64,000 nucleotides of DNA from Branchiostoma floridae (taxonomy: Eukaryota; Chordata; Leptocardii; Amphioxiformes; Branchiostomatidae): the NCBI RefSeq assembly GCF_000003815.2, contig NC_049980.1, positions 8,222,209 through 8,286,208 of the forward strand, given 5' to 3'. Numbering within the stretch: the first letter of the stretch is position 1; the number at the start of each line of letters is the position of its first letter. A model generated the notes under the pieces. The model saw only the letters and a list, made by a program, of their open reading frames with translations, did no database searches and was not told the DNA's origin. Of this stretch, positions 24,531 to 62,226 are shown one piece after another. The translations under genes and the position numbers were made by a program.

Positions 24531-27500
24531 TTAAAAAGTCTGGTTCACGGCAGGAGCTCCGGGATCGGTAGGCTGGTAACGTGGAGGCAGGGACGTGGCT
24601 CCAGAGGGAAGGGCCGCGGCTCCAGGGGGAAGGGCCGTGGCTCCAGGGGGAAGGGCCGTGGCTCCAGGGGGAAGGGCCGTGGCGTATTGGGTCTGGTTTG
24701 GAGGGAGCGGTGTCATGGCTATGGGCTGTCCCCCCTGCATGACGTACTGGCCGGGTACTATGATCTGGGCCAGTCTGCCGTCTGCTCCCATTTGGTAGGC
24801 AACTGCTGGTGGCTGGTAACAGATCAAAATGTCAATGCATGGTTTCTATGGTGCTGTTTTGTTGACAATGGTTTGTGGACGAAATATCCGATATATGTAC
24901 ATGACAACAATCCAACGGAGTGGAGCAAGTATTGAAAATGTTAATGCCACGCCGTCCCACTGTTAACTTGATGTTAAGGCCTTTCACCTTGAGAGATCAG
25001 AACGTATGTGCGGCGACGGGAGGCCTCGATAAAGAGAACAGTCCTTGTCTCGATCAATGTTCGATTTCCATAACAACATCCAGACGGGTTTTGTTTCCTT
25101 TTTGTGGACCGTAACCTTTGACACATTGTAACCTAGGATTCCTGTCGCCGCACATGCGTCCTGATCTCTGTGAAAGGGCTTATTGTTCCATAGTCCGTCG
25201 AGTAACCGTTCATTGCAATTCTCTTCCACAGACAAAAAGGCTGTATAAAACATGCTATTTACCTGGTGACCCTGACCGTCACATCTGCAGCAGGGGCAGA
25301 CGGCACAACACGTCATCACGGAGGAGGTGATTGACAGCCCAGCCTCCAGCAGGGCTAGGATGACCAACAGCGCGTTAATCGCCAAACGGGCATCCTGGGA
25401 AGAACAACGATTTTTCTATAACTACTGAAATGTCGGGATTTCGCTTTCTGATAATGAACAACAAAATTCAAGACGCTTAAGCATAAACTACTGGAAATAC
25501 AATTTCGCGGGGATTTACTTTCGTGGTAGCGGGAAAATGGTGATTTCGCGGTGGCTTTTAAGTTCGCGGTAGCTCCATAGTCTGTAGTCTCATACTATAA
25601 TGGAAAAATGTTCGCGGTGGTCTCAAGTTCGCGGTAAAAACCGCATTTACAGTACATAATATCACTAGAGATTAAGCAAACAATCCTTTGGTAACGGTTT
25701 GTTATTGCTATAGAGCTCTGTCAGGTACACGATCGAATATACGTTCTGGAAATATAGAATACAACCTGGTGTATTCCGTATCACCCGAGGTATCAGCCCG
25801 ACCGCGGGTCGGATCGCTCGACGATCATACCCACCTCAGAAAACCCCTGTTTTGATGCGAAATGCGCCAGAAGTTGAACAAATTTGGTGCCCTCGAACAA
25901 AAAATGTTGCAACAGTAATGTTCCAACGTCTGAATCAGGTATTCGAACATTCGATGGCGCCGCACTCGGCCCGCTCGAAACAGTTCGATTTATTCGAATG
26001 GAGCCTGTGTGATACGCCTTTCGAACCGGTCTGATACGGAAGTTATGGCCCGGCCCGGAACACCCGTATCGAACGTTTTCGCGTCACAGATATGACATAA
26101 TAAAAACCAGGAAAGCTGCTGGACCGGACGGTATCCCGGGAAAACTCCTCAGGGAATTTGCATATGAACTGAGTGGACCACTTTCTGACGTCATCAACTC
26201 GTCTCTTCTACAGGGGAAAGTACCTGACGAGTGGAAAAGTGCGATCGTGGTGCCGGTGCCCAAAACAAAACCGCCCTCTGTCGATCAACTTCGCCCAATT
26301 TCATTGACTTCCCTGTTGGCCAAAATCGCTGAAGGATTCATCACACAGTGGACTCTGTCTGACATACTACCTCAGATCGACCCCCAACAGTTTGGATGCC
26401 TGAAAGGGAGATCTACTACGCACTGCCTGCTGGACTTAACCAACGACCTGTACAAGGCGTCAGACAAACCGGGAACCCTGTGCTCATTGGTATCTACTGA
26501 CTACAGCAAAGCGTTTGATCGGGTAAGCCACACCATCGCTGTAACCCGATTGATGGAGATGGGTCTGCGTCCGTCTCTTACGTCGTGGATCGTGAACTTC
26601 CTTACGGGGAGACGCCAAGTCGTCCGTTATCAAGGAACCCTCTCCGACAGTGCTACCATAACGTGCGGCCTACCACAGGGAACTCTTCTTGGGCCTCTGA
26701 TTTTTGTGGCTTACATCAACAGTGCGGCGCGTCAAATCTCAGCCAAAAGATGGAAATTTGTGGACGATTTAAACCTGTTAGAGATCAGAAACCCCACCGT
26801 AACACCTTCGTCCCTGCAAAACGACCTTTCTGACCTAGAGAAATGGTCTGGTGAAAACAGCATGGTACTACATCCTGGAAAATGCCAAGTTCTACATGTG
26901 AAGTTCAGCAAAGCAGTATTCATACTACCGCCCCTCAAAATTAACAACAACGAACTACGACAGGTTCAAACCATGAAGATTCTTGGCGTCTTAATGCAGT
27001 ATAACCTGAAGTGGAATGCCCACGTGGACTACATGTACGCTAAATCCAGTCAGCGTTTGTTCTTTCTCAGAAAACTCAAACACTTCCACATCGGAATTGA
27101 AGACCTTGTGATCGTGTACACCACCTACGTCCGTCCGATCACCGAGTATGCTGCACCGGTGTGGCATCCCGGACTGACAACATCCCTGTCCAACAAACTC
27201 GAGATAATCCAACGCAGAGCAGTGCGGATAATCCTGGGAGCTAACTACACCAGCTATGCTGAAGCCTGCTCACAACTTGGCCTACCCTCACTTCACCAGA
27301 GGCGTGAGAACTTGACACTAAAGTTTGCAAAGTCCCTTCTAACATCCAGCCAGTACCGTCATCTCCTGCCACCGGACAGACAGAGTATTAGTGGCAGACA
27401 GACTCGCTCCTCAAACAACTTGGACTTGGTTCATTGTAGAACAGAGCGACATAGAAACAGCGCCGTCCCATATATGGCACGCTTGATCAACACATAGCCC

Positions 27501-30476
27501 ACCAATGTATGATGTTGTTGTAAATAGCTCTAACTTACTTTTAACGACGGTGTTGCGTATTATTGTTTTGAATTTTAAATTGTAATAAGTTGTATACTTC
27601 GCATTTGCTTATCCTATAATCATTTTTGTGTAAAATAATACATAAAAAGACTGTCAAGCAGTGCAATTCAGCCCTTTGGGCTGCAAGACCGCTTTTAATT
27701 TGTCATTCTTGTTGAAATGAATGAATAAACCAATCTACATATATAATGTTGTTTATTATGGTGCCAATATTTACTACCTGGTGTATATTGACTGCTATAA
27801 ATTTTCCTTATATAGTTCAAGAAAGCTTTTACCTTGTCGTTACAATACCTGCACGGTATGTATAGATCTACGAATATCGCAGTGGCCGAGTACTGGAGCA
27901 TGATAATGGTGAAGACTGCTGACACGATGGACAGGACCATGAAGGTTATTATCTGTAGAGTGTTAAACCAAACAAACAGTATAAGTTACTACATGCATTG
28001 AATTCTTTGTGAATTACAAGATGTTGCCTTTGATTGACACCGAATGTAGTTACTCGATAAATAAGGAAAATGGATTTGTCATGACAGAAATCTTAAAGAG
28101 ACGGAAAACTAGCTTTTGCCATGCCAACGTGTCTCTTGAACATATAGATCTAGCATATTCTTATATTGCTAAATAGTGAAGAAGGACTGTTCATGAATAC
28201 AGCTTCACGACTTTTCAAAAAATGCAGATGCAGAACACAGTGACACTTTCCCGAAAAAAAAAAGCTACCAACATAACGTTTAACTCACCATGCAGGTAGT
28301 CTTGCGGACCGCTGCGAATATGCCGACGATTCCAGTAGAAAGGAACTTGGCGTGAAAAACAAATAAAGAAGGAACGCGGTAAGTGAAGGATTTACTTCCA
28401 TTTATTTTCATGGCTACCTTGTCCCCCCAACGACCTGGAGGTCAAGGGACTAGGTAGGTAGGTAGGTAGGTAGGATACACGGACAAACGCTGATTGTCTG
28501 AATAGTACAACACGGCATGCCCAATGGCCTGTGTAACGACACAGGCTAAATGTTATAGCCGCCATAGTACCATTTTATAAAGAATGTTTCTTTAAATGAT
28601 CACTGACTTGCGTCTGTTCAATGTTCCCCTAAACTTTATTTTCAAACTGTATGACCATATATGTTGTTTGCTTTTACCAATAACTAGAGTTCCACGAACA
28701 CATACCTTCGCCAAATAACCATGCCTTTATTCAAGACTTTAAGGTTTCATTCATGTATTTCTTAAGAGTACCTATTCCAAAAGCAATAGACTGCATGGAC
28801 GTGTGTTTGCAGCGGTTGGAAGTTCCATTTTATCCATCCCAACTAAACTCGGGTAGTGTTGTCCACAGACAAACAAACAAACAAACACACATACATACAT
28901 ACAGACGCGGCAGTATATTAGGAAAACGGTAGGGGAACCATTTTGGAACTTAACCTTCCTTTCCACAACAGGTACTTCCCAAGTTTACACCTTCGTCCAA
29001 GTTATGCTCTTGACAGAAGACAGGCCCACACCACGCCGTTTTTTTATGTGACCTAAATAAGTATAGCTAGTTTCCCTGAAATTAGGTCTTACCCGAAAAT
29101 GTAGGGGATTTGTAAACTTTCTCCGTCAATTATGTAAATAAGCCCATGATAAACATAATTAGCATCTCATTATATCAATAAAATTTGCATGATTTATTTC
29201 TAATAATGTTCACCATGCTTCATAATGTTGTAAGTATGGAATTCCCATCATGTACCACTATGGAATTATTATATTATCTCGTTAAATATGCAAATGAGGA
29301 TGCCATCTGCAAATTAATTTCTATTGACATTTCTCTCTTTCTCATTTACATATGCGACAATATCAAAAGTCCTATCATGGAATGCAGTGGATTTATAAAC
29401 CTTGCTCATTGATTATACAAATTAGCTGTTAATTTGCATAATTAGTATCTAGTTATGTAGGTCTCCACTTAGGCTATCTACATACCAAAAATCATGACGA
29501 TCCCTAAACACGCTCAAATTTTCTCTATAATTATGCAAATAAGGTCGTTATTTGCGTAATTGATATCTAGTGATATTTCTCTCTTTCTCAACATATGTGA
29601 CAAGTTTGAAAGTCCTATCATGGAATGCAGTGGATTTATAAACTTTCCTCATTAATTATGCAAATTAACTGTTTGTTTAGTATCACTTAGGCTATCTACA
29701 TACCAAAAATCATGACGATCTGTCAACACGTTCTCGAGTTATTCTCGTCCAAAGTTTGAAATGAAATCGGCGCCTGCAGTTCCAAACAAGCCACCATGGC
29801 GCCAAAACTTGCATGACTTCCTCACTGCCCAAAGACGTATCCACTAGTCAAAAATCGTGAACCTGCCACTTGAGGATGATTTTAACGCCAACTTTGACGC
29901 TCCGCTGCAGTACCTCAACTTATCGCCAGGAGGCCCATTATCGAACTTGACCTTCGGTTTCCCAACCCCTACATAACTACCAAATATCATGCAAAACGAT
30001 CGACAGCGTATTGAGTTATCTTGTTCGCAACCGAACACACACACACACACTCGCCCCGCTGCAGCGCCGACGAAAAGTGACAGGTAAACCGTTTTCAAAC
30101 AATACCTCCGTTCCTGCAACCGCTACTCAAATACCAAATATCATGAAATTCGATCCACAGCTGCTCGAGAGTGACCAAAAGATGCAACCCGTCGACCATT
30201 ACTCTATATGTTGGAATGTAATGTCAGCCGTCATGTATTAATACATGTATTACAGGATACACGTGTGATGTTCAAGGAAGCTTAAGGCACGAGCCTTACC
30301 AGGGCTCCTATCCATATTGGATATCCAGTAAAGCTGAACCGGTCCCGAAGCACGATGATGACGATGCCAAAGACGATGGCCAGACCTCCGCACACCACCT
30401 GAGTGATGGACAGGGCTTTGGCGGCGGAGTTGCCGAAACATTTCGGCGTGCGAGCGGGCTGCTGCTGCTGGCACAT
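24531..30476 (-). CDS. MS4A/CD20-like four-transmembrane protein, copy A1 (shortened tail)
   Basis: Exons: A 30300-30476, B 28289-28345, C 27833-27952, D 25263-25394, fused E/F 24531-24812. All joints are phase 0; the product is 255 residues. TM1 includes KALSITQVVCGG; TM2 spans the A/B junction (GYPIWIGAL then FLSTGIVGIFAA); exon C is TM3 plus a loop; TM4 is LLVILALLEAGLSITSSV, followed by a Cys cluster. This order matches the MS4A (CD20-like) family, whose members form membrane complexes in signalling and trafficking. The cytosolic tail differs from its sisters: a deletion joined the middle of exon E to the middle of exon F, and a 7-nt insertion brings a TAA after NQTF. The terminal acidic dileucine signal is therefore lost. 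A LINE lies antisense in intron C-D. Either a living truncated paralogue or an early pseudogene. Confidence 0.8.
24598..24681. repeat. 21-bp minisatellite inside the A1 tail exon
   Basis: Four tandem 21-bp units (gctccagggggaagggccgt plus one base, with small variations) encode repeats of the type ALPPGAT on the minus strand. The unit length is a multiple of three, so copy changes keep the frame. The same unit is present zero to two times in the sister genes. Confidence 0.85.
25470..25660. repeat. Dispersed repeat rich in ttcgcggt, A1 intron C-D
   Basis: Words such as tttcgcggtgg and aagttcgcggtagc recur four to five times. The ends (actggaaatacaatttcgcgg and ccgcatttacagta) are loosely inverted. 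No coding capacity. Confidence 0.5.
25757..25830. mobile_element. Relative of the AATACAAC-ended inverted-repeat element
   Basis: gaatacaacctggtgtattc, then cgtatcacccgaggtatcag and cccgaccgcggg match the minus strand of 16380-16455. The other end is unclear because the LINE fragment begins at about 26094. Confidence 0.55.
26094..27730 (+). mobile_element. 5'-truncated non-LTR retrotransposon with open reverse transcriptase frame
   Basis: One frame is open from 26097 to the TAG at 27497 (466 codons). It starts inside the fingers of the reverse transcriptase (KAAGPDGIPGKLL) and continues with DQLRPISLTS, FGCLKGRSTTHCLLDL, the catalytic DYSKAFDRVSH, GLPQGTLLGPL and the second catalytic box as FVDD instead of the usual YADD/YVDD. 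Thumb and C-terminal parts follow. No endonuclease domain is present, as expected after 5' truncation. The 3' end is probably the gctgcaagaccgc..gaatgaataaa stretch near 27730. It lies antisense in intron C-D of A1. The frame has no stop or shift, so the insertion is fairly recent. The clade (CR1/Jockey-like) is not certain. Confidence 0.88.
28453..28475. repeat. (TAGG)n microsatellite
   Basis: About five tandem copies of tagg in intron A-B of A1. Confidence 0.9.
29090..29760. repeat. ATGCAAAT-rich dispersed repeat, partly duplicated, A1 intron A-B
   Basis: The block containing aaagtcctatcatggaatgc and ggatttataaac occurs at about 29366 and 29609, and taccaaaaatcatgacgat recurs at a similar spacing, so about 220-245 bp is duplicated in tandem. 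Words such as atgcaaataaggtcgttatt resemble 9650-9690 in LRRC61 intron 2, so this is a dispersed family. Further words ataccaaatatcatg at 29980 and 30130 suggest the same repeat type continues to about 30150. Confidence 0.6.
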
Positions 30477-31293
30477 GCTGGTTCTACATGTAACCTCCAG
30501 AAGAATGGGAGGGGGGTGCGATGTTGTAAAGTTAAAGAAATGTATGATTCTGATATTGTGTTACATAGCACTATCAAATACAGTGCAGTACTCTGATTGC
30601 TACTTTGGTTTTAAATATGACAATCGTTTCATGGATGGTTTCCAATACCCTTCTATAAGCGTGTCTCTTGAGAACAGTATCGCCCTAACAACTTGACCTC
30701 ACCACGCTTCTCTATAGTGGAATCCATTCACACAGGTTGCAGCGCTAGCTTTCCTGTGTTGTTTACTTTGTCGTTAGTACTGTTGTGGTTTATTGAACAC
30801 GTCTTATGATATACAAATTTATCACACCTGCTTCGGGTACAGTGACAAATGTTGTTTTGATCCTATTTTACATGGTTTATGCCTAATTAGTTGTCCTTTC
30901 AGTCATGCTTAAATGAACATGGAAGACTTAGCAATGAACATGGCGTTACTAATTAAAAACTATGAAGGTTCTTCTGTTAACTCAACATGCCTGATTCATG
31001 TGTAAAGTTGGTGCTTAGCTTAGCGTTCGTTATTTATAGTGAAAATCTAACTTCGCGAAAATGCTGCCTAGAACAGATTAAAAGAGCTTTAGACTTCAAG
31101 TGATTGACTATGTGGTAAGATATCAACTTTCAATTAACTTCCGTGTCGATTGTCCCCTTTCCATTAGTGTCATGGCTTGAGTGAACCACCTACTTCTTCT
31201 TTATTCTACGATGACTGGTTCAAACACAAAATTACACGCATTTCCTTCATAATCATGGCAAATAAGAGACATACTAAAATGAGCACTACGTAC

Positions 31294-31410
31294 CTGGTAT
31301 CTGGTGACACGGCTAAGAGGAGGGCGATATAATTACGTGTATTATCTGATGTGGATGCACCGGTTGAAAGGTCAAAGCCCTCAGGTACTCATGGCTGAAC
31401 GTACTATTGT
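31294..31410 (-). promoter_or_regulatory. Probable non-coding leader exon and promoter of A1
   Basis: Exon A of A1 is preceded by an acceptor only seven bases 5' of the ATG, so an upstream non-coding exon is required. A strong donor (CCAG|gtacgta) at 31294 is conserved at 38103 for A2. Upstream of it, ggttgaaaggtcaaagccc (plus strand near 31361) is conserved with A2 and resembles the AGGTCA block of the B genes. The 5' boundary of the exon is not known. Confidence 0.55.
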
Positions 31411-33290
31411 CTCTGCAAATCTGGTAGAACAGCACACTGTTTATGTTAGCTTAGCTTTTGAACTTTTGAACGTTTTAGTCAGACAGGTTTTCCATGCGCA
31501 ACACCCTCAATATCATACAAAACCTAGTGATTAATGACAGTCACTGTTTGATACAAAGTAGCATCTAGGTCATGTGTGATATCAAGGAGCTTGAAATTAT
31601 TTTAACCTCCTTGGTGATATCATGACATGAACTTTATTGCACGACATTTGTAACATCCATTGGCATAATACCGGTCGGTTTACTGCAATTTCTCAAGCAA
31701 TGCTAATTTGGCAAATGATCAACGCATCATTTTCTCCAGTTACATGTTGCTGTTACAGCTTACCTTTGCCACTTCTTCTGTGTAAATTATTTTGTCTCTC
31801 TGGTCCTGCTAAAAACACAATATCGTAATTGGAACACACCGCGGAATTGCACGGAGAACGGGCGCGTGGTTGGAAGGGGGTGCACTATCATGACCGGCCG
31901 AACGAAACACGGCACAATTAACTGCCGCTATGTACCTTTATACATCCTCTGTTGTTCCTTTCTTTCCTGTTAGTAGTTGCACAAAACAAAAATCTGCATG
32001 AGCATACAAAAGGTCATGAGAAAATGGGCGTATACTGACAAGAATTTTCATTTAATTTTGGTCCGTCACAACCGCTATGACGTAAAACTGGCCGTAGCAT
32101 TAAAAATGGCTGGAAAATGGCGGCGTACGTTCAATTTGACCCATTCAGCCGTAGATCCGGGCGATAATGCAACGGTTCCTCACACTTTTACACGAGTTGT
32201 AGGTCACCAAAAGAAATTCAAGATTGCTGTTGAATCATGCTCGTCTTGTGCCGTGAGCACATGTGATTATTATCTACAAATCTGGCGATCGATGAACGTG
32301 ACAGTGTGTTTGTCCCACGACGAGCTCGCCTGCCCCGAAAATGACCTGAAAACTTTTGGCCTTGTTGTCTTCGAATGCATTGTTATCGATGCTTTGTAAA
32401 TGATGTATTGGACACCTAGATGTCTGCAGTGTGCATACCTCAGAAATAACTATTGTTGCAAGTGTAGATCTCTTTAAGTTCCACTATTTTTAATCGACCG
32501 GTATAAGGCTTATGACCGGTATTATGCCAATGCATGTTACATGGTATCTGTGAAAAAAACTCTACATGCGCGTTACAAGATAGGTGGCTGTCACAAAACT
32601 GATTCCCAGATAATATGACTTTGGTAAACAGAAGCGTTACAAAAGTGCACCATGAGAACGGCGTACCCAATGTTACAAAAATACACGTAAAACACTGAGA
32701 ATGATCCAGATCCTTACATCTGCTTGAATAAGTGCACTCTCAGTACAAGGAAGATAAAGGGAAGTCCATGATAGTCTAGTAATAGGCTACTTAATGTTGT
32801 ATTTTACTACCGAGTTGCATGAGTGACAGGTAAATCCAAACGTGATTTGATGGTTTTATAACCCTTTAATTCAATAAAATCTGCATAAATTAGTCTTCTG
32901 TGTTAACATTACACGCTGTCACCAATGATGCAATGAGAATCATTGTAAAAACATAAACAGCACCCAGACGCTAGCACATAGTTTTATATGCAGTTACAGC
33001 GATTAAGCTATGCACGAAAGTGCTGGAACAGACAAATCAGACTGTTATGCACAACAAGCTTCCCCCAACGCTGGATAACCAATGACTTTTTTCGTTATTT
33101 CTAAAACAGGGAACCAACCCGCTCCACCAACCGCGGTTTTATCGATATATAGACAGCTGGCATAGTCTCTGCACACAACCCAACTGATACTTAACCCATC
33201 TTTACCATTATGTACTAGATGATTGTAACAAAAGCAGTGACATAGTAAAGATGATTCGGGTTGTAAACTGAATAGCACTTACGTAATCAC
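31411..33290. other. Spacer between A1 leader and A2 3' flank
   Basis: No supported gene. A 140-codon frame at 31977-32399 resembles no family known to me and has no splice or duplicate support. There is a short hairpin at 31583-31622 (gatatcaaggag / ctccttggtgatatc), and copies of the dispersed repeat at 31648-31680 and 32439-32540. At 33110-33225 the sequence matches the 3' flank of A1 (24350-24480). Confidence 0.5.
32439..32540. repeat. Dispersed 100-bp repeat, inverse copy of 20037-20137
   Basis: Reverse complement of the block at 20037-20137 along its whole length, with a few differences around the two accggt sites. Confidence 0.7.
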
Positions 33291-33299
33291 TGACTTAGT

Positions 33300-33836
33300 G
33301 CTAAGTAGATAGTTATCTTGTTTTTGAGGTCTTACAGACTGTTCAGAACAATACCTGGTTATTGACAATATTCGGCACAGGACGGCCGTCACAAAACTAC
33401 GAATCAGTTGCCACAAATTACACATTGAAACCGGAAGACATAACAGCACTCCTCTAGAACAACGAGTATGAAGATAACGTAACTGCAATCTAGATAAGTT
33501 AGAAGACGGACATCATTTTGTAGTAGAATGTAGTTTGTACAAGAAAGAGAGAGCTGAACTCTATAGACTGATAGAACCCATGTTCCCCCACTTCATACCA
33601 CTAAGTAAAATAGACAAATTTATATTCCTTATGTATTAAGACAAACCTTTACTTATAGATAAAGCATATCTGTTCCTACATTTTCAACATCACAAAGAAG
33701 AAGTCGAATTCACGCAGTAGAATACGATTCTTGAGTATTGTAGATTCATTGTATATATTCCATGTATCTTTTGTCGCGACCTGTACTGAACCCAGAGGGT
33801 ATGTATGTACAATAAAGGTCTTCATTCATTCATTCA
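33300..33836 (+). pseudogene. 3' end of a non-LTR retrotransposon next to the A2 stop codon
   Basis: Broken plus-strand coding remnants read TAVTKLRISCHKLHIETGRH, then (after stops and a shift near 33470) LEDGHHFVVECSLYKKERAE, ending at a TAA near 33638. This is the typical zinc-knuckle-like C terminus of many LINE polyproteins. A short 3' UTR follows, with aataaa and a (ATTC)n tail that runs into the A2 stop codon region at 33837. Paralogue A1 lacks it: there the sequence after the stop continues straight into the flank. Confidence 0.75.
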
Positions 33837-36800
33837 TTATTCATCGATGAGAGGGACATCATCATCCTGAAAAGCCTGGTTCGCGGCAGGAGCTCCAGGA
33901 TCTGTAGGCTGGTAACCAGGCGGCGGGGACGCGGCGGTGGGTTGGGGGGAGGTCTCGTGCTGGGGTACGGTCGGCTGCTGTTGGGGCTGCACAGGGTACG
34001 GGGAGGACCCGGGTTGTGGGGCGATAGGCTGCTGGAACTGAACCTGAGGCACAGACTGTGCGCGTGGCTGCTGCTGACTCGTGACTTGTGGCATGGGGAT
34101 GGGGGTGGACGTGGCGAGGACGTACTGGATATTACCTGTAAGGAATCCAGAGAAGGGTGACGTTTCAACAAGGTATGATTGCAATTGATTCATTCATTCA
34201 TTATCGTTCACATTTCATGATTTTCTAACAGTGGAAATTGAATCAGAAACGCCCAGCTTTTGCGTCGTACCAACATCCATCGGTGGATCTCTTCTGAAGA
34301 TCTATGCCAACACTTCCAGAGTTGAAAATATTAAAGAGACTATCGTTCTATGATTTAGTATCAGATAAAACTTACCACCGTGTCCAACAGTTGGCAGTGC
34401 TGGGATCATCTGTGGCTGAGAAGGTGGTGCACGAGCGCCTCCTTGCGCCTGTTGCCCTGCCGGAACAAGCACAACGTTCCCTTGTGGCTTGGGACCCTGT
34501 ACAGCGGTCCCCTGGGCAGCAACCATGTTGGCAGGTGCCTGAGTGATGAGTAGGGGTTGTTGGGCAGCAGCTCCTGGGAGAAGGGGCGCGGCTCCAGGGG
34601 GAAGGGCCGTGGCGTATTGTGGCTGGTTTGGAGGGAACGGTGTCATGGCGATGGGCTGTCCCCCCTGCATGACGTACTGGCCGGGTATCTGGACCAGTCT
34701 GCCGTCTGCTCCCACCTGATAGGCAACTGCTGGTGGCTGGTGACAGATCAAAGTGGTATATGATTTCTGTGTTGTTTTATTGGCAAAGCTTTGTTGGAGA
34801 AATATCATACATGTACATGACATCAATCCAACGGATTCAGCTGAAGCAAGTTTTGCAAGAATTGATGGTCCCATACTCCTTTAACAACCTCCCTCTGGCC
34901 ATTCCCATAACCAATCCAAATTTGGTGCCAAATGGCTATCTTAGCATGCTGAATGCTAGGTAACCGTCTATTGTTATTCCTTTCCATAGCGCAGCAGAAG
35001 TGCTGTACGAGAACGTAACCAAGACGCCCGGTAATAAATTGGCCTGACTATGTAAATCTTCTAGCAGCCCTCTTCCATTAGGTCAGGCCTTGGCAGCGAG
35101 AAGGTATGATGTACGTAACATGGGCTAGACACCAAAGAAACAACCCGTTTTTACCTGGTAACCAGGCTGGCCGTCACAGCTGCAGCAGGTATCCTGACCG
35201 TCACCTCTACAGCAGGGGCAGACAGCACAACACGTCATCACGGAGGAGGTGATTGACAGCCCAGCCTCCAGCAGGGCCAGGATGATCAGCAGCGCGTCCA
35301 TCGCCACACGGGCAGCCTGAGAAGTACAACATGAATAAACAAAATTTGCATAAAATAAATTAACAACAAAGCAATTGTACTTACTTAGTAGAAATCTGCA
35401 AGGTACATGACTGAATTTACTCTCCTGAATGTGTTTTTGTTGCACATTGGCTACTAGTTAATGTAAACTTAATAAGCTATGAATGTTGTTCGAGAAAGTT
35501 TTACCGTGTCGTTGCAATAGTCCTGGATCTCCCAGCACCATCTGTATCGATCATAGTCTACCGCAGTGGCCGCTAAGCCGAGCATGATAGAGGTGAAGAA
35601 GGCGGACACGATGGACAGGATCATGAAGGGTATCATCTGTACAATGTAAAGAAACGCACGAACAGGTTACTATTTTCATTGAAGTTTAGTGTATTACGAT
35701 TTGTTGCCTTCGGTTGAATATGAATGTAGTTACTTGATACTGTCTTTTGAGAAATGATTTTGTCATGATAGGATGTCAAAGTCAAAGAGATGGAAACTGA
35801 ATAGCTTCCGTCATACCAATAAGGTGTCCCTAGCTTAAGCATATAACCTATTTCTATTTTCATTTTGCTTCATAGTTTACACTTTCCCGGAGGAAGTTAT
35901 CAACAAAGTGTTTGACTCACCTATGCATGTAGTCTTGCGGACCGCCGCGAATATGCCGACGATCCNNNNNNNNNNNNNNNNNNNNNNNNNNNNNNNNNNN
36001 NNNNNNNNNNNNNNNNNNNNNNNNNNNNNNNNNNNNNNNNNNNNNNNNNNNNNNNNNNNNNNNNNAACGCACGAACAGGTTATATTTTCATTGAAGTTTA
36101 GTGTATTACGATTTGTTGCCTTCGGTTGAATATGAATGTAGTTACTTGATACTGTCTTTTGAGAAATGATTTTGTCATGATAGGATGTCAAAGTCAAAGA
36201 GATGGAAACTGAATAGCTTCCGTCATACCAATAAGGTGTCCCTAGCTTAAGCATATAACCTATTTCTATTTTCATTTTGCTTCATAGTTTACACTTCTCC
36301 CGGAGGAAGTTATCAACAAAGTGTTTGACTCACCATGCATGTAGTCTTGCGGACCGCCGCGAATATGCCGACGATCCCGGTAGAAAGGAACTTGGCGTGA
36401 AAACAAAGAAACAAAGACGTAGATCAACAGAAAACGCAAGTAACAAGCCCAATGGCGTATGAACATCGCGTATCAGCTGCCAACAGCACAGGCTAAGTGT
36501 CATAGCCGTCATAGTTTGTTATCACTCTTTTACGTCTGTTCAATATTCCTCTAAACTCCATGACAAAGTAAGGAAGAGATCCTGATACAGGCGTGAAACT
36601 CCCGCGGATACTGTCCTTGCCCAATGATATAAATCGATGGACTGACCAAAGTTGCAACCCGACCATCACTCGGCATGTTGGAATGTAGTGTCTGCGTACA
36701 CTGCCCAAGCAAATCTATTGCATACTTTGAGCTGTTAACGTTATGTATCAACACATCATCTATCACAGAGTGCACGTGCGATGTTCAATCAAGGCCTTAC

Positions 36801-49260: not shown

Positions 49261-49588
49261 ATTGCCTCGATCGATTCGTTGCTTCAACGTTTTTCAAATA
49301 TATGATATCAAATTACAAGGGAAATCAAAATTTCTCTGTCAAAATTCTTTGTGTCTGTTTCACATGAGATAAATATGAAGCGATCTACATGTACCTTGTT
49401 CTAATGAACAGGGCCTAAAGAGATAAAAAGACCAAATAAACCACTTGAAAATGGCGACTTTGGTTCCCTTTTTCAACTCATTATAGTATAAACCGTAAGA
49501 AAACATAACACTTGTGTTGCCGTTATTCAGTCTTTTTGAAACAAGAGTACGTGATGCTGCAGAGTCCAATCCACGGTGTGTGGCAAGG

Positions 49589-50935
49589 ATTTATTGTTTA
49601 TTGTTTATTGAAAAGATCTCCATTAGTGAATACATGTACAATTCTGACAATGCGTCACTAATCTTCCTGGAGTCTTAAGACAAACACTTAACACAATACA
49701 TTAACAGAACATTGAGACTATTTACACCTTAATTCACAACCTATCCAACCAACCTAAATATACACTTAACGTTATACTTAAAGGAAGACATTACCGCAAA
49801 ACCTTATTCTTAAAATAAAAGTAAATGTAGTTGTGAGATCGAGTAGCTGAGAGGTCAGAGGTCAGTATCAAATATTCTAAACATTAATTCTATATACATA
49901 GTTGTCAATAAATGTCTTACCACCAGTGCTGCAGAGGTTTGTAAGTTTGTGTCTGTGTATTTAGTCTGCATGTCTTTGATGTGCTTTTTGAACATGGACG
50001 GTGTGGCTGATTTGAAGTGTTGTGGTAATGAGTTGCAGGATTTAACACACCTGTAAAGGAAAGTCCTGGTAGCAGCAGAAGTTTTGGGTTTGGGCAATCT
50101 TAATCTCCCCCCCCCCCCCCCCCTAGTCGGGTGTTGTGTCGGTGGGTATTTTTGATTGCATGTAGTCTTTTGTAGGTAGCTTCTGGTTTCTTAGCTGTTT
50201 GTGGAACATAGTGAGGGTTCGGGTATAAAGTCGTTCGTTTACCTTTGGCCAGTTCAGTTTTCTATGTAAGTCATCAGTGTTAGAAGTGTACTTTGCATTA
50301 AGTACTAGCCTGGCAGCCTTATTTTGCAATGTCTGTAGTTTATTTAAATGAGATTGGGAACTCGCAGACAGAAGACATGCACAATAATCCATGTGACTCA
50401 GAACAAGTGTTTGTGCAACAGTTTTTAACGTGTCACTAGTAAAGAAGTCCCGAGATTTAGCCAGTGCTGCTAGTGCGCGTGCCATTTTAGATGTTACTTT
50501 GTCCAGATGTTGAGCCCAGGTTAACTGCTGGTCCATCAACATTCCTAGAAGCTTAGCCTGCTCAACCTGTTCTATCATTTTGTTGCTCATCGAAAGCTGC
50601 AAGGCTGGTTTTTGTTTTAGTTTGTAACGACTTCCAATGACCATAGATTTGGTCTTGTCAACATTGAGCACCAGTCTGTTAGCTTGAACCCAGTTATTAA
50701 TATGGGTAAGTTCGGCTTGAAGAGTGGCTTGTACCTCTGCTATGCTGGCCCTGCAGCAGATGGAGTTGTATCGTCTGCGTACATTACTACGTCACAGTGT
50801 TTTACCACTGCGGGTAAGTCGTTAGTATATACGCAGAACAACAGTGGACCCAAACAGCTACCCTGTGGTACTCCACTATTTATCTCTCTGTAAGTCGAGA
50901 TATCACCATTTACAATTTATCAATTGTAACTTCTA
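49589..50935 (-). pseudogene. CR1-like LINE 3' fragment between B2 and B3
   Basis: On the minus strand: SGVPQGSCLGPLLFCVYTND, then VVMYADDTT (catalytic YADD), a frameshift near 50750, then LNVDKTKSMVIGSR, AKLLGMLMDQQLTW and ARLVLNAKYTSNTDDL. A 17-base G/C run (50107-50123) breaks the frame again. It resumes with PKPKTSAATRTFLYRC, SCNSLPQHFKSA and MFKKHIKDM. The 3' end is a short tandem repeat of caataaa at 49589-49606, as in CR1 elements. The other B spacers (44128, 55398) run straight through this site, giving the empty target. Confidence 0.88.
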
Positions 50936-51314
50936 ATGTCCCCCATTACATGGATGGAACATTTCATTTCTATAAATTTTCGTATACAATAGTGTGTTCG
51001 TCCTAGAATCGTACTATCATTTTCTGTTATCGTGTATACGTGTTATACGTAAACCAACATTAAAGCCGAGCTCTTCTTAGATTTGACATAATAACGGTTG
51101 CGCAATTCAGTCTCTTTGCTGTCTTGCTCCATTTGTATCAGTCAAAATCTGTGTGAAGAACATGCTATTCATGTCATGTCTGAAAGTTGTCTTTTCGATC
51201 TAATCATGATGACAATACATTTCAGTACGTAAAGTTTAAGACACTATATAAGCGAGTAGAACCTAACGTTATGGTTTCACTGGGCATGGTCTTCGGATTA
51301 CGAATCTCATTCGC

Positions 51315-53648: not shown

Positions 53649-53831
53649 GATTCTGGAAGAATATGAGATTACACACAGGGAGAAATTATCAAATATGAGA
53701 TTTCAAACATTTGAATATTGCATCATGTGATCAACCGCTCAGGTCATTGTACAACGTTTGTAACTCTCATCATGGCATGGGAAATTGAAAACCTTCGACA
53801 AATTGGTACAAAGTGGAGGAGAGATTGATTC

Positions 53832-54063
53832 TACCCTGGGGGCCAGCCGGGATCGGGCAGCTAGGATAGTTTATTCGGAGGCCCAAGACAGTCAGGCCCG
53901 CCTATCTGCTATTAGCGCCCGGGGAGTTTAAGTCCGATAAGGGTAGCGATAACTCCTTCGGGCTTAAATTCCCCGGAGCACTAATGTGAGATCGGCGGGC
54001 TGACTGTCTTGGCTCCCCGAACAAAACTCGCTAGCTACCCGGTCCTGTCTGGCTCCCAGGGTA
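53832..54063. mobile_element. Foldback transposon with 10-bp target duplication in the B3 leader intron
   Basis: Ends TACCCTGGGGGCCAG and CTGGCTCCCAGGGTA, with arms of about 70 bp that also pair further in (aagacagtcaggcccgcc / ggcgggctgactgtctt). It is flanked by agattgattc on both sides (53822-53831 and 54065-54074). The B1 flank (42785) has this word once and no insert. Long arms with a 9-10 bp duplication suggest a Mutator-like (MULE) non-autonomous element. Confidence 0.82.
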
Positions 54064-54952
54064 TAGATTGATTCGTGTACTCTAATATTCACAACACTAA
54101 AAGTAAAAAGGTCCGGGGATGAAAAATGCTTACACTGGATGACCCCAAATAACACCGCCACACAGCATGTGATTCGTGACGTGTACTTGTAGTTAATCAG
54201 TGTATGAACTTAGTGACTAGAGTTCCACGCACAGTCTCATACATTCGTCGAATGATGTTAGCTTTTTCGAGTGACGTATTATATACATGCTTCTCGTTGA
54301 TTATGAAAATATCATTCTCATGTACATAAGTCATATTAGTTGATTATCCTTTAGACCCAAACAACACTTGTTCAAAGTACGATGTCCTATCTTAAGCAAA
54401 GATGCCCAAACCTACACCCTCTTTCCTATCATATAAAAGCCACCAAAAAGATCCAGTACACGGCATATCATAACCGCAAGTTCTGTTATAGTGCCATGGA
54501 AAGCCTCCATGAGGAGCCCACAAATCTAACCATTTCCAGTTTTTGTCACAACCTACCAACGTACCAAATACAAAACCAATCGATTCAGACGTACTTGAGT
54601 TATTTGGTAACCAATAGGCATATAGACGCACATACACAAGCCGCTGGCTGCCCAAGATATAACCTTTCTGATCAGCTGTATGTGTGTGTAGATAGTCTAA
54701 CTAACCTGGGATTACACCTTTACCTCGTTCCACCAGCTCTACGAGTACCCAATGTATGTTCTGACAAAATGAAGACTTGACTCAGTACTGTATTTAGTAC
54801 TAGTAGAACAACTGCTCCAAAGTGCACGTCGTGAATACCCTACAGTCTATCAAAGTTGGTTTGTATATCACTACATATTACACACCATCAGATCAGTGAG
54901 CCGGCAGTATAACTGTACACTAGACGGAAAGAAGCGCATTTTTAACGTTTAC

Positions 54953-55090
54953 CTGGTGTAACGATGCACTGCGACGTCAGCAACTTAAAGAATGTTCCCC
55001 TGCGTTGGGCCTCACCCACTGGTGTATGTGATAGGGTCGAAGGTCAACGTCCTTACGTGCCTCCCACTTGTTGTTGTGCAACTTTGGTAT
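54953..55090 (-). promoter_or_regulatory. Probable leader exon and promoter of B3
   Basis: Donor ACACCAG|gtaaacg at 54953. Upstream are CRE-like gacgtca (about 54972) and gaaggtcaacgtccttacg (about 55038), in the same order as B1. Confidence 0.55.
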
Positions 55091-55730
55091 TTGTGACACG
55101 TACATTGCCTCAATCGATTTGTTGCTTCAACATTTTCAAATAGGTGATGTCAAATGACAAGGGAACTCAGTATGTTGCTCCGATTCTTACAAATGACATA
55201 CATATGAAGCGGTATACCTTATTTCAATGAACAGGAGCTGAGAGATAAAAAAAGCGAAAAAGACACTTGACAATAACGACTCTGGTTTCCTTGTCGAACT
55301 CATGACAATAGAAATTGTAAAAAAAACATAAAGCTTGTGTTGACGTAAATCCTTTTCAAAATATGAGTATGTGGTGCTGCAGAGTCCATTACAAGGTGCC
55401 GCAAGGATTTTTCAATCACATGTTTAACGTTCCAATGTCATCCATTACATGGATGGAACAAGCACATCTTCTTATAGCACGTTCGTCATAGAATCATCGT
55501 CTCTGTCATCGTGTAAAACAGTGCTCTTCTAAGAGTTGACATAACAAATATTGCGTAAGAAAGTCTCTATGCTGTCTTGCTTCATGTGTATTTCAATCTG
55601 TATGAAGAACATGCTACTCATGACACTTCTGGAAGTATCAGAAGTATATATATCATTGCGTTAGATGATGATAATAGAGCCTATGGCTTCAGTAGACGTG
55701 GTCTTCGGGTTACGGATCTCGAGGTGCCAT

Positions 55731-58191
55731 TTAATCTTCGATGAGAGGCACATCGTCTTGTTCAGTCGGCATGGCCTGGTTTGCAGCGCCACGAGCGTCA
55801 GGCTCAGCGGGCTGCAGCTGGTAGCTGGGGGGAGGGGAGGATCCCGTGGGTGGGGCAGAGACTTGTCCCTGGGGTACGGTTGGCTGCTGTTGTGGCTGGA
55901 GTTGTGGTGGGTGCGGGTAGGTCGCGGCCTGGCTGGGTTGCTGGAACTGAACCTGTGGCACGGACTGTAGCGGCTGCTGACCTGCCGCTGGTGTTGACGT
56001 GGCGATGACGTACTGCATGTTGGCTGGAGCAAAATAACATGTTAAAAGTTCATCTGGTTGAAATAGGAGTATCTCCATAGTAGACATGTGTACGTTTTAG
56101 TTTCAGCTGTGTGATTAATGGTTAAGATGTCTGAATCTCTCCTCCCTATGTGGCATTAGGGTTAAGGTTTCCACTTTACTGTCCCAAACTTACCTTGCCC
56201 ACCTGTTGATATCGGTGGTGCTACTTGGTGCTGAAGTGGTGCAGGAGGGACACCCTGCACCGGGACAAACACGACGTTCCCTTCTGGTTTGGGACCCTGC
56301 CCGGCCCCAGCGTTCCCCTGAGCAGCAGCCATGTTGCCAGGTGTCTGTGTGACGAGTAGGGGCTGTTGGGCCGCAGCTCCAGAGGGAAGGGCCGTGGCGT
56401 ATTGCGGCTGGTTTGGAGGGAACGGTGTCATGGCGATGGGCTGTCCCCCCTGCATGACGTACTGGCCGGGTATCTGGACCAGTCTACCGTCTGCTCCCAC
56501 CTGGTAGGCAACTGCTGGTGCCTGAAATGACAGTTATTGCAGATGAATTTAAACTTCGAACGTAACTGTTAAAGAGCAAAGAGAATCTTATAGGCGACAA
56601 AGTTCCTACTAGAGTACGTTCAACTTGGAAATCTTGTCCTTTCACCTGTTACAACAAATATACACAAAGTGATTACGACATATATCGGGGAACGGATTCT
56701 TTTAGTTGTCATAGATAACTTTTGCTTCTACCATTCTGACATGGTCAGAGAGTGTCTTAATTTTTGTCGTCTTTCTATACTTATCGGCAAGCTCCCTTCC
56801 GAATTTCAGCTAAAATTAAAATATTGTCTCAGCTTCAAAGGGCGAGACATTACCTGGTAGCCACTGTTGTTACATGTATCACAGCAGGTACAATTGTCCG
56901 TACTTCCCTCGGTGCAGCCCGGACAGATCGCATAACACGTCATGACAGAGGTGGCGATGGCCAGGCCCAGCTCCAGGAGCGCCAGTAGGATCAGCAGGAC
57001 GTCAAACGTGATGATGGCGCCCTGATAATCAGATACAAGTCTCGTCATAAAAGCGCTACAGTACCACGTTTGATGCTTTCAGGATGATGAAAGGTACTCC
57101 AATATTCACTAAACTACAGACGGTTAGATCCCACAAGGACATTACTCAGAAATCTAGACCTATAATTCATCATTATGGCGATTTGACTTATCTTATGATT
57201 ATGACTGTGCTGCTGTATATTACAATGCGCGATGTGCTTTCTGTCAAAGCATCGGTGTTAATTCACTCGTATGTGTATGGAAACTAGTTTACCGTTGGAC
57301 ATTCACTGCCTGGAAAATGATCGCACCATATCCAGACATCATATGAAAGTGCGATGGCCGCAAGGACGAGGGTAACGGTTCCCGCCAGGATGGACGAGAG
57401 GATGGATAGAATCATCAGAGGTATGATCTGTACACAAGAGTAAAACGTCATACATGTAAATGATAACAAACTACAGAAGTATATCCAACTATAACTGTTA
57501 GTTACCGTATAAGATACATTTTTACAGCAACAGAACTATATCTTCACGATGCAACTTCGATCTCGACGTAAAAAACGACAGGCTCACGAAGTGAGCGGGC
57601 TGGCACCTGACTCGACCGTTATATTTTGCCACTGCGCCGCGTCATCATTTAAACGATTATACTGACATCTGAATTACTTGATGCATATGAGTACATTACC
57701 CATACTCATTGGAGCCTATACAAACAGGTTATGTATGTAAATAACACCAGTACTGCTGCCCGTAATGTTCATGAATTCAGTAGATATTTTGCAACAATAA
57801 ATGTGAACTTACCATACATTTGGTCTTGCGTTTCGCGGCGAAGATGCCGATGATTCCAGTGGCGAGAAACTAATTAATAAGGGTACAACAAGGGGTCATT
57901 ATGTTGTGATCATGAATTTAAAAATAGAGCTCCATACATACCCTCGTATAGAATTAAAATCGTAAATATGAAAACATACATGTAAGGGTTAACATTGTAT
58001 ATTCTTAAGCTTACCAACGCTCCGGTCCAGATCGGATATCCAGTCCGGAAGAGCGCGCTACCCGGTATGATGATAGCGATGCCCAATAGTATGACCACGG
58101 ATCCACACACTATCTGTGTGATAGACAACGCTTTGACGGTATTCCCGCCAAAACATTTTGGAGTAGGGCGGGGTTGCTGGAACATATGCAT
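55731..58191 (-). CDS. MS4A/CD20-like four-transmembrane protein, copy B4
   Basis: Exons: A 58015-58191, B 57813-57869, C 57293-57427, D 56854-57021, E 56194-56521, F 55731-56023; the product is 385 residues, frames intact. Same architecture as B2 and B3, with four membrane segments, Cys-rich CYAICPGC and CTCCDTC, and a tail with APAVAYQ, one ALPSGA unit, PPSYQ and EQDDVPLIED. Differences: exon B encodes FLATG instead of FLSTG; the exon C loop reads WIWCDHFPG where the sisters have WGWCWNFPG; exon F begins A-N-M because its acceptor is followed by CC instead of GT; the tail has an extra LQ before PAEPD. Its usual leader donor is lost by deletion (see 59311). Likely a working gene if a leader can be spliced. 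Confidence 0.87.
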
Positions 58192-59310
58192 GGTTCTGGA
58201 AAGAACATGAGATTTCAGAGAGAAATTATTCAATAGCACACACAATATGATACTACGTATATTATATATTATATATTATATATATATTTTTTTTGGGTAA
58301 ATATTTCATCATGTGAGCTCTTGTCATATCATAGCACAATCTTCAATCTGGCGATTGCAACTCTTAAGAAAGCTGAACGACAAATTGGTAAAAGGCAGAG
58401 GAGAGATATTTAAAAATCATATCTTGTATGAACTGGATAATGAACTTTGCTCAGGCTTTCAGAGCTGCCTTCCTGCTGTCGTTCATTTGACTGCCGTCAT
58501 TGGGAAGACGGCACATGATGACAAGAACGCCGTGACTAAATTTTCTCTTTTGATTTTTCACATTTGGGTGTTTGATTAATTTCAACACATCTCGTGTCTA
58601 ATATCCACACCACAAAAAGAGCCGAGTCCTGGGCCCAATATGAAAAAAATATTTCACACCCTCTGACCCCAAATAACACCACCGCACAGCCATGTGCTTA
58701 GTGAGTAGTTAATCAGTGAATGAACTTTGTAACTCGAGTTCCTCATTGTCTCACACACTTGTCAAATGGTGTCAACCATTTCGACGTATATACAATGCTT
58801 CTCATTATGAAAATAACATCCTCGTGTTCAAAAATATATCAGCATGATTAGACCCAAAAAACACTTGTTTAAAGTATGAAAGTCCTATCGTGAGCAAAGA
58901 TGCCCAAACCTACAGTGCTACACCACTCTCTCCTAACATTAAAAGCCACTAAAAAGGTCCACTACACGGCATATCAAAACAGGAACGTTCTGCTACAGTG
59001 CCATTGAAAACCAGGAGCCCAGAAATCTTACCATTTCCAGTTCGTATCGCAACAGACCAACGCATCAAATATAAAACCTATTGCAATCGATCTAGACGCC
59101 ATTAGGCTGCATAAACTGAATAAGACACAATGTATATACTAGAAGAAATAGTATAGAAATACTGTCAAAAGAGGCAACAGACAGACGAACGTACACAAGC
59201 CACTGGCTGCCCAACCCATAACCTTTTGCGAAGGTAATTACACGAGCTATATGTGTGTAGAGAGTCTATTAACTAATTATAACCTGAGACCAGCTACACC
59301 TTGACCTCAC

Positions 59311-59430
59311 CTTCCACCAGTTCTGGTGTAACGATGTATTGCGACGTCGGTAGTTGATAGAATTTCCCCTGCGTTGGGCCTCCGTGACCCACTGGTGCGT
59401 GTAATAGGGTCGAAGGTCAACGTCCTTAAG
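59311..59430 (-). promoter_or_regulatory. Altered leader region of B4
   Basis: A deletion of about 210 bp relative to B1 joins ccaccagttc to tggtgtaacg and removes the usual gtaaacg donor. A nearby minus-strand donor, GAAG|gtgaggt, at 59311 could replace it. CRE-like gacgtcgg and gaaggtcaacgtcctta are still present. Confidence 0.45.
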
Positions 59431-60300
59431 TGCCTCCACCCACTTGTTGCTGTGGAACTTTGGCATTTGTGACACGTACATTGCCTCGATCGATTCGTTG
59501 CTTCAGCATTTTCAAATATGTGATATCAAATTACAAGGGAACTCAGCATGGCATAAATATGAAGAGATTTACCTTATTTCAATGAACAGGACCCGAGAGA
59601 TTGAAAAAAAAAAGAGAGAAGAAAAGCCACTTGATAATGGTGACTTTGGTTCCCTTTCAAACTCAAGACAGTATAAAGGGTAAGAAAAAACATCAAACTT
59701 GTGTTTATTCCCGTTATTTACTATTTTTGAAATTAGAGTATAAGGTGCTGCAGAGTCCATTCCAAGTGCCGCAATGATTTATCCATTACATGGATGGAAC
59801 AAGCTCCTTTCATGTCTTTAGATTTTCATATATTAGGATCGTCCTAGAATCGTACTATCATTGTCTGTTATCGTGTAACACTTAAAGCTGAGCTCTTGTT
59901 AGATTTGACATAACAATAGTTGCGTAATAAAGTCTCTATGCTGTCTTGCTCCATTTGTATTTCAAAATCTGCATGAAGAACTCAACATGCTATTCGTGTC
60001 ACATCTCAAAGTTTAGTTTTAAGACACTATATTTTTGACGACGCCTCAGGGGAGTCGTCAAGTGGTATATATTGCGATCAGTCTGCAAAAATTCTAGGAA
60101 TTGCACAGGCATTTTTCCACAGGAATACAGTATGCTGGGTATGCAAGCACCCCCCCCCCCCACCCACAAATCTGTTCCAGATGTATCTCTGGTATGCAAT
60201 GGTGGGATGTAGGTCACACTGGCTCCCTGGAGGAATTTGTCCTTTGAAACTTAAGCGGTAGACAGGGAAACTCTGCACAATGGATCACGTTGTCTTTGTT

Positions 60301-60356
60301 GTTATGTTATGTCATGTTATGTCATGTTATGTTATGTTATGTTATGTTATGTTATG
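60301..60356. repeat. (GTTAT)n microsatellite
   Basis: About eleven tandem pentamers, mostly gttat with two gtcat variants, in the spacer between B4 and B5. Confidence 0.92.
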
Positions 60357-60918
60357 AAGGGTACATTTTCTTTTCTAGAGCTTGTTCAAGCCATACGCCA
60401 CAGGCAGACAGGAAATACTTCATATAGAGGTCATGATCTGCATCGATGGCATCCAAATGGTTATCATATTCAGAGCCAAATATAATTGTTCAAGGCCTAT
60501 TATACTATCCAAGGACTGGAATTTTACGAAGTAGGACAGCCATGTGGGTTAGGTGCAAGAAAGTAATTCAAGGACGGAAGTGCTGGAAACAGTTGGTTCT
60601 TCCTTATTTTTTATTCTCCACTACACACTGTAGTGCCAGGTATTAGGTTACTGACAGACGATTGTGCTGTACCAGGGATAGTACATTTCTGCTCGCCGTA
60701 GGTTTATGTTACAGGTGGGCTCGTATTTTGTGCCAGGGATAGTGCGACAGGGAAGTTCCAGTCTATTTCTGATTTGAGCTGTATTGTTGTTCCCCTCAAT
60801 CGTCGTCATGGCAATAATATTTCTATTGCCAGTCTTGTTTACGTTAGATGGTGAAAGAGAGTATAGCCTATGGTTTCACTGGGGGTGGTCTTCGGATTAC
60901 AGATCTCGAGGTGCCCGC

Positions 60919-62226
60919 TCAATCTTCGATGAGAGGCACATCGTCCTGCTCTGTCGTCATGGCCTGGTTTGTAGCGCCACGAGCGTCAGGATCAGCAGGC
61001 TGGTAGCTGGGGGGAGGGGAAGGTCCCGTGGGTGGGGCAGAGAATTGTCCCTGGGGTAGGGTTGGCTGCTGTTGTCCTGGGTGCGGGTAGGGCGCGGCCT
61101 GGCTGGGCTGCTGGAACTGCACCTGTGGTACGGACTGTAACGGCTGCTGACCTGCCGCTTGGGCTGTTGACGTGGCGATGACGTACTGCACGTTACCTGA
61201 AGCAAAATGTGTGAATATTCATAACATGTTAAAAGTTCACATAGTTAAATAAGAAGTACACATGTGTGTATCAGGTGCAGCTTTGTAATTGATTTCTGAA
61301 ATATTAGACTCTCTCCTCTACGTTTCAAAATCCACTGGTTTTCTATTGTCCTTTACTTTATGGTTTCCACTTTACTGTCCCAAACGCACCGTGCCCACCT
61401 GCTGGCATCGCTGGTGCTACATGATACTGATGTGCTGCAGGAGCGACACCCTGCACCGGGACAAACACAACGTTCCCTTGTGGCTTGGGAACCTGAACGG
61501 CCCCAGCGGTCCCCTGGGCAGCAGCCATGTTGGCAGGTGTCTGTGTGACGAGTAGGGGCTGTTGGGCCGCGGCTCCAGGGGGAAGGGCCGTGGCGTATTG
61601 TGGCTGGTTTGGAGGGAACGGTGTCATGGCGATGGGCTGTCCCCCCTGCATGACGTACTGGCCGGGTATCTGGACCAGTCTGCCGTCTGCTCCCACCTGG
61701 TAGGCAACTGCTGGTGCCTGAAATGACGGTTATTGCAGATGAATCTAAACTTCGAACGTAACTGTTGAAGAGAAAAGCAAATCTTATAGATGACAATGTT
61801 TCTAGAATACAATGGAAATCTTGTCCTTTCATCGCTGTTGTACACAAGCAGGTAGTACACAAAGCGATTAAGACATGTCGGGTACGATTGTTATTTTCTT
61901 TTAGTTCTGATAAGTACCATTTGCTTCTACAATTCTGGCATGGGCATGGTCAGAGAGGGACTTAATTTTTGTCGTCTTTCTTTACTTGCGGGCAAGCTCC
62001 CTACCGAAGTTCAGTTAAAATTAAAATATTGTTTCAGATTGAACGACAGGGTCATTACCTGGTATCCACTGTTGTTACATGTATCACAGCAGGTACAATT
62101 GTCCGTACTCCCCTCGGTGCAGCCCGGACAGATCGCATAACACGTCATGACGGAGGTGGCGATGGCCAGGCCGAGCTCCAGGAGGGCCAGTAGGATCAGT
62201 AGGACGTCAAACGCGATGATGGCGCC
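60919..62226 (-). CDS. MS4A/CD20-like protein, copy B5, exons D-F only
   Basis: Exons: D 62059-62226, E 61390-61717, F 60919-61196, giving 257 residues in frame (TM4, Cys clusters and full tail). The tail has one ALPPGA unit, PPSYQP and EQDDVPLIED, then a TGA stop where the sisters have TAA. In the sisters exon C lies 270-400 bp upstream of exon D; here homology stops at about 62385 and no exon A, B or C is found to 64000. Without TM1-TM3 this could be a truncated pseudogene, a gene with a greatly enlarged intron C-D running past the window, or a misjoin. The exons themselves are undamaged, which argues for a recent break or a continuing gene. Confidence 0.75.

Follow-up and report, generated by a model that had tools for sequence, protein, structure and literature searches.

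What kind of membrane protein is made by a family of genes whose products end in long tails of proline and glutamine is the question raised by positions 24531-62226 of the 64,000-nucleotide stretch of DNA analysed here (the window). Seven copies of a CD20-like gene lie there head to tail on the minus strand, as established by motif searches and splice-site modelling; in number, coordinates, start motifs and tail lengths they agree with an earlier note on this DNA. Judged by sequence comparison, the array is a tandem family of CD20-like (PF04103) membrane proteins with four predicted spans, and so belongs to a known family. We also consider it somewhat more probable than the contrary that these proteins combine a variable outer loop with a constant cytosolic tail for sorting to endosomes, the start of exon 5 being kept alike among the copies.

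The Pfam CD20 profile (PF04103), the search proposed in the earlier note, was positive for each of the six proteins scanned (the partial copy B1 being left out), with scores of 43.5-55.3 bits against a curated cut-off of 27.9 bits. Five proteins matched the profile over its full length (1-156 of 156); in the sixth, A2, the best stretch covered 1-82 and two stretches were counted. Among solved chains the core of B3 matched FceRI beta (E=3.9e-6) and CD20 (E=0.0016), and a profile of the six proteins gave FceRI beta as its best match (E=3.5e-6) and CD20 at E=0.025. The CD20/MS4A-type core proposed earlier is thus borne out by Pfam and by the matches that the B cores make to FceRI beta and CD20. 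A Kyte-Doolittle window picked out four hydrophobic spans, the putative transmembrane spans TM1-TM4, in B2, B4 and A1; it missed TM2 in B3 and B5 and gave extra overlapping peaks in A2, and B1 is partial. Extracellular loop 2, between TM3 and TM4, has two cysteines in all six copies that include it, and TM4 is followed by a Cys-rich stretch (five copies have 7-8 Cys among 31-33 residues, B5 has 3 among 18 and A2 has 6 among 21). The tetraspanin profile (PF00335) reached 12.6 bits in A1 and 17.1 bits in A2, against a cut-off of 32.1, and was unlisted for the four B proteins. NCBIfam returned only matches far below cut-off, to tapirin in four of six proteins and to an SMR transporter in one. Scans of viral and genome contigs with the six-protein alignment yielded 123 and 75 pattern stretches and no relative by tblastn, a result that is uninformative about animals.

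Five of the copies, B2, B3, B4, B5 and A1, have six coding exons each and specify proteins of 382-395 amino acids (aa). Their exons 1-6 measure 177, 57, 132-141, 123-168, 322-361 and 290-299 nt, and their introns 137-848 nt, A1 intron 2 including a sequence gap. Exon edges were picked by eye and GT...AG was imposed by script, so that the splice dinucleotides lend the models no support of their own; the models are supported by frames that stay open through all joins and by common phases (0,0,0,0,1) wherever the exons are present. B2 (58191-55731, 385 aa, PF04103 E=3.6e-14) has its exons at 58191-58015, 57869-57813, 57427-57293, 57021-56854, 56521-56194 and 56023-55731. B3 lies at 53648-51315 (384 aa, E=4.2e-13), B4 at 47067-44548 (388 aa, E=4.3e-11), B5 at 42600-39713 (382 aa, E=2.2e-11) and A1 at 36977-33837 (395 aa, E=1e-14), with its exon 2 set at 36390-36334. 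Exon 4 of B5 is shortened (123 nt as against 168), has a weak donor (gtggta) and lacks the second half of the Cys-rich segment. In intron 2 of A1 a gap of 100 N (35966-36065) is flanked by 314 aligned bases (35653-36377) that are 99% identical, with exon 2 on both sides; the second exon 2 most likely reflects unmerged contig ends and not a real duplication.

The two remaining copies depart from this plan, and the six coding exons described as common to the array therefore hold for five members and not for these. B1 (62226-60919, 257 aa modelled) consists of exon 4 (62226-62059), exon 5 (61717-61390) and exon 6 (61196-60919). Its exons 1-3 were not found in 62227-64000 by tblastn, and blastn-short gave only five matches of 9-10 bp there. 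The place next to B1 exon 4, on its upstream side, where one would look for exons 1-3, is taken by a tandem array with periods of 13, 19 and 37 bp (62544-62799). A2 (30476-24531, 255 aa, PF04103 E=2.3e-14) has five exons and a tail cut short: exon 5 reads on until it meets a stop codon, and of exon 6 the last part persists as a remnant in another frame (24526-24497). Two of its introns are long (1954 and 2438 nt), and the second of these, intron 3, houses a reverse-transcriptase frame on the plus strand (26013-27494; RVT_1 E=1.1e-25) which, read by eye, we take to be of the LINE (long interspersed nuclear element) type. Subfamily A (two copies) starts with MCQQQQP and subfamily B (the four copies having exon 1) with MHMFQQP. 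An AG stands 4-7 bases ahead of the ATG in all six copies having exon 1, but the alignment of their upstream sequences showed blocks common within B and within A and no clear common leader exon; the shared leader described earlier is not established.

Measured from PAVAYQ to the end, the tail is 200, 205, 204, 208, 215 and 218 aa long in six copies and 92 aa in A2, and proline and glutamine make up 33-37% of it in the six and 29% in A2. Each of the seven tails contains one PPxY motif (PPSY in the five B tails), and in six of them an acidic dileucine of the form [DE]xxxL[LI] (DDVPLI or DDEPLI) stands near the end; A2 is without the dileucine and keeps the PPxY. In B2 the predicted C-terminal signal region, from PPSY (WW/Nedd4-type) to DDVPLIED (acidic dileucine), covers 55734-55832 on the minus strand, counted from the exon 6 end; five other copies also finish with these two types of motif. 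When each tail was shuffled 5000 times, PPxY occurred in 13-20% of the shuffles, a dileucine within 15 residues of the end in about 0.1% and both in 0-0.08%. Both motifs are encoded in exon 6, and A1 keeps them although its exon 6 is diverged from that of B (synonymous divergence, dS, 0.84-1.12; amino acid identity 57-62%). Since PPxY is fairly common and the dileucine rare in shuffled tails, and since exon 6 has diverged, the weight rests on the dileucine and on the retention of the motif pair in both subfamilies. The B2 tail (205 aa) gave nothing credible against solved structures, the best match being an FMN reductase at E=0.076. A 21-bp minisatellite of the ALPPGAT type lies inside exon 5 (24589-24683), with 4.5 units in A2 and about 2.2-2.4 in A1, B4 and B5.

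Tails of this kind have parallels. The C-termini of LAPTM proteins are reported to carry PY and [DE]XXXL[LI] motifs, and PY motifs and Nedd4 to take part in the sorting of LAPTM4 and LAPTM5 (PMC3214061); by analogy, the tails of the array proteins may act as the LAPTM and ENTREP motifs do. The earlier note had held that a long tail is foreign to vertebrate MS4A proteins and that an MS4A core joined to a trafficking-type tail could be a new combination. Both views need correcting: human and bovine MS4A14 are described as having exceptionally long C-terminal regions (PMC2826416), a likeness by description only, and ENTREP/FAM189A2, with CD20 homology and PPxY, is a precedent for the combination (PMC8811627). 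Among the titles and abstract openings of the literature matches listed, no description of a CD20-like family with a Pro/Gln tail carrying PPxY and dileucine was found, and a literature query on MS4A exon sizes returned no match.

The history of the tail differs between its two exons. A stretch of A1 exon 5 (34455-34736, minus strand) is unusually like subfamily B, being near-identical over about its first 135 nt and fading in likeness toward 34455 (about 280 nt in all); the matching stretch opens exon 5 of every B copy, and upstream of the exon 5 start identity is at background level. At 4-fold degenerate sites A1 and B differ at 42-54% outside exon 5 (five comparisons), as against 0-2 of 21-26 sites in exon 5 codons 1-47, a difference that does not exceed the one within B2-B5. 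By the Nei-Gojobori method (NG86), exons 1-4 and 6 give an A1-B dS of about 0.6-1.9; in exon 5 it is 0-0.10 in codons 1-45 and 0.57-0.80 beyond codon 90. For A2 against B it is 0.14-0.18 in codons 1-45. The branch between A and B measures 0.625 substitutions per site (bootstrap 100) in the other exons, which supports the A/B split followed by local expansion that had been proposed, and 0.008 (bootstrap 56) in exon 5 codons 1-45, the trees having been built under a fixed HKY+G (Hasegawa-Kishino-Yano plus gamma) model. The best reading, and the most likely one from these sequence comparisons, is that the exon 5 start was homogenised between the subfamilies by gene conversion or exchange of the stretch. 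The "conserved tail" of the earlier account would then be partly a product of homogenisation: the exon 5 start is alike in A and B even at synonymous sites, whereas exon 6 has diverged like the core.

Nucleotide-level constraint, through splicing, RNA structure or an overlapping element, would account for the exon 5 likeness in another way, and the high identity does begin at the exon 5 start. With diverged introns, however, a conversion tract would also be expected to end at the exon edge. General constraint on exon 5 is disfavoured since the B2-B5 pairs are not depleted of synonymous change there: in codons 1-47 they differ at 1-3 of 22-27 4-fold sites (six pairs), and over codons 1-95 at 2-6 of 41-54, as against 10-17 of 128-138 in the other exons. 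Synonymous sites can evidently change, the B2-B5 pairs being about as variable there as elsewhere, and only the A-B comparison is anomalous. In the approximately unbiased (AU) test a clade of A1 and A2 was not rejected with codons 1-45 (p=0.595), which suits constraint, and was rejected with codons 1-95 (p=0.028), which does not; both tests used four topologies of our choosing and data that included the A2 deletions. They help the gene conversion reading less than the synonymous-site contrast does, a single conversion into the A1/A2 ancestor being one that would leave the A1+A2 clade intact. On balance constraint seems an unlikely explanation.

The part of the core in which the copies differ most is loop 2. 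In B2 it reads YDVWIWCDHFPGSECPT, with two cysteines (57293-57343, minus strand, counted from the exon 3 end), and it has the highest ratio of nonsynonymous to synonymous differences per site (pN/pS) in the core among the B copies. Pooled over B2-B5, pN/pS is 1.21 in loop 2, as against 0.06 in the N-terminus, 0.10 in the Cys-rich stretch, 0.13 in TM2, 0.20 in TM4, 0.33 in TM3, 0.35 in TM1 and 0.36 in loop 1; the tail has 0.53 in its exon 5 part and 0.40 in its exon 6 part. Among these copies the short intracellular loop shows zero synonymous changes. Loop 2 ranged from 0.89 to 1.28 and the remainder of the core from 0.23 to 0.48. The independent pairs B2-B4, B3-B5 and A1-A2 together gave 24.8 nonsynonymous and 4.2 synonymous changes in loop 2 (pN/pS 1.20), as against 51.5 and 55.5 in the rest of the core (0.32; Fisher p=0.00025). 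With B2-B4 and B3-B5 alone p was 0.0014, and the two other B pairings gave 0.0028 and 0.008. It is in the outer loop that the copies appear to vary most, the exon 5 start having been kept alike across the subfamilies, most likely by gene conversion.

A mechanism can be proposed on this basis. CD20 oligomerises in the membrane, and the array proteins, as members of its family, would do the same, with the Cys-rich stretch after TM4 palmitoylated. The tail would be a constant module for sorting: its PPxY would recruit a ubiquitin ligase of the Nedd4/ITCH type, and DDVPLIED would recruit AP-type clathrin adaptors. The array protein, together with whatever partner or ligand its variable outer loop has bound, would be delivered to endosomes and lysosomes.

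Several observations weigh against this proposal. The A1 core alone matches FceRI beta weakly (E=0.064), and a plain hydropathy window misses TM2 in B3 and B5. A tail with so much proline will fairly often contain a PPxY by chance, as the share of PPxY among the shuffles indicates, and the array tails have one PY motif where ENTREP and LAPTM4a/5 carry two or three; the dileucine is lost in A2 and half of the Cys-rich stretch in B5. A1-B dS is intermediate (0.23-0.44) in exon 5 codons 45-90. As to loop 2, it was singled out after 11 regions had been looked at, and A1-A2 alone gives p=0.18 and is also high in TM3 (1.54) and TM4 (1.08); between A1 and the B copies, moreover, loop 1 stands at 1.00 and loop 2 at only 0.59. 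Since the loop 2 ratio is near 1, relaxed constraint is as good a reading of it as diversifying selection.

Outside the array, presumed exons of one leucine-rich repeat (LRR) gene lie on the plus strand at about 9.4-13.4 kb (9400-13440), the exon in 9849-10106 matching LRR_4 at E=5.2e-12 and the frames 11895-12122 and 13206-13439 having no Pfam match. We tentatively take this gene to be LRRC61. Between it and the array are an AT-hook frame (20261-20503, minus strand, E=9.3e-05) and, on the same strand, an acidic Lys/Glu-rich frame (19630-19923). Between B3 and B4 the frame 50126-50791 has no Pfam match above cut-off and is presumably a retroelement remnant. Two further gaps of 100 N occur at 15768-15867 and 21410-21509.

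This neighbour bears on what the array descends from. If it were the counterpart of TMEM176A/B, its products would be cation channels of CD20-like type residing in the Golgi and endosomes, encoded at an old locus near LRRC61, and the tail would place the channel in acidic compartments. The TMEM176 relation is a serious rival to the MS4A relation because a presumed LRRC61 lies near the array, because LRRC61 and TMEM176 are linked in human and rat and because of the channel descriptions. As a whole account it nevertheless seems doubtful to us: the identity of the LRR gene is our assumption, one linked gene can be chance, and the AT-hook frame intervenes. The human gene list runs ATP6V0E2, ACTR3C, LRRC61, C7orf29, RARRES2, REPIN1, ZNF775, two LOC genes, GIMAP genes, one LOC gene, TMEM176B and TMEM176A (PMC4962380), and in rat the distance from Lrrc61 to Tmem176b is given as about 244 kb (PMC12494634). 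One paper describes TMEM176A/B as cation channels that are activated by acid and lie near the trans-Golgi network, and it places mouse Tmem176a and Tmem176b in opposite orientation (PMC4806298), as against head-to-tail copies here.

Two other accounts concern the tail itself. Were the array proteins adaptors like ENTREP, their chief job would be to recruit a Nedd4-family ligase for some other membrane protein. ENTREP is described as having CD20 homology and PPSY and PPPY motifs that mediate its association with ITCH (PMC8811627), and PPSY occurs in the five B tails; yet each array tail has one PPxY and not two spaced ones, and in that paper ENTREP is given a single transmembrane domain. We regard this account as rather improbable. 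Alternatively the array might be in decay, its tail being low-complexity filler and its motifs the work of chance. Decay would suit the truncation of A2, the weak donor of B5 and the possibility that B1 is without its 5' half. It is hard to reconcile with frames open across matching joins in five copies and with the pooled pN/pS of the B copies at the N-terminus (0.06), TM2 (0.13), TM4 (0.20) and in tail exons 5 (0.53) and 6 (0.40), and we think it very unlikely.

What is known here is the CD20-like family; what would be new are the uncommon tail, the homogenisation of exon 5, the pN/pS of loop 2 and the nearby LRR gene, presumably LRRC61. Tentatively, and with low confidence, the array could be a pre-vertebrate or non-vertebrate descendant of the locus from which TMEM176 and MS4A arose, still near LRRC61, that forms a receptor repertoire, its outer loop diversifying and its sorting exon being homogenised by gene conversion. 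If the identity of LRRC61 holds, the linkage would be a testable starting point on the origin of TMEM176 and MS4A; if the sorting-tail reading is true, a variable loop with a homogenised tail exon would offer a simple model of a membrane-protein repertoire with a common trafficking module. Zuccolo et al. (2010) judged the invertebrate candidates, including those of lancelet, to have short, unspecific similarity that may be convergent, and concluded that invertebrates are without MS4A-like genes (PMC2826416). If the window is from an invertebrate, the whole-profile CD20 match and the FceRI beta match (E=3.9e-6) argue against that view. Public databases may already hold proteins of this kind.

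Compared with known systems, the array shares with MS4A (CD20/MS4A1, FceRI beta/MS4A2) a CD20 core over the whole Pfam profile in five of the six scanned proteins, a GYPxW stretch that aligns with FceRI beta, and tandem clustering; loop 2 has two cysteines in the array copies and contains a disulfide in CD20. It differs in its Cys-rich stretch followed by a long Pro/Gln tail with PPxY and dileucine. LRRC61 as a neighbour, on its assumed identity here, is a possible likeness to TMEM176A/B. These are described as CD20-related with a topology similar to that of MS4A, in the paper that also gives MS4A14 as the long-tailed vertebrate case (PMC2826416), beside which the array tail is set by description only; they differ in forming an oppositely oriented pair in mouse (PMC4806298), the array being head to tail. 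ENTREP1/FAM189A2 resembles the array in CD20 homology and a cytoplasmic PPSY motif and differs in two PPxY motifs and one transmembrane domain (PMC8811627), against one PPxY in each of the seven tails here. The LAPTM proteins are a separate family, no LAPTM profile appearing in the Pfam scan of the six array proteins with E up to 1. As multispan proteins with C-terminal PY and [DE]XXXL[LI] signals (LAPTM4/LAPTM5; PMC3214061), they would work in the way proposed for the array proteins.

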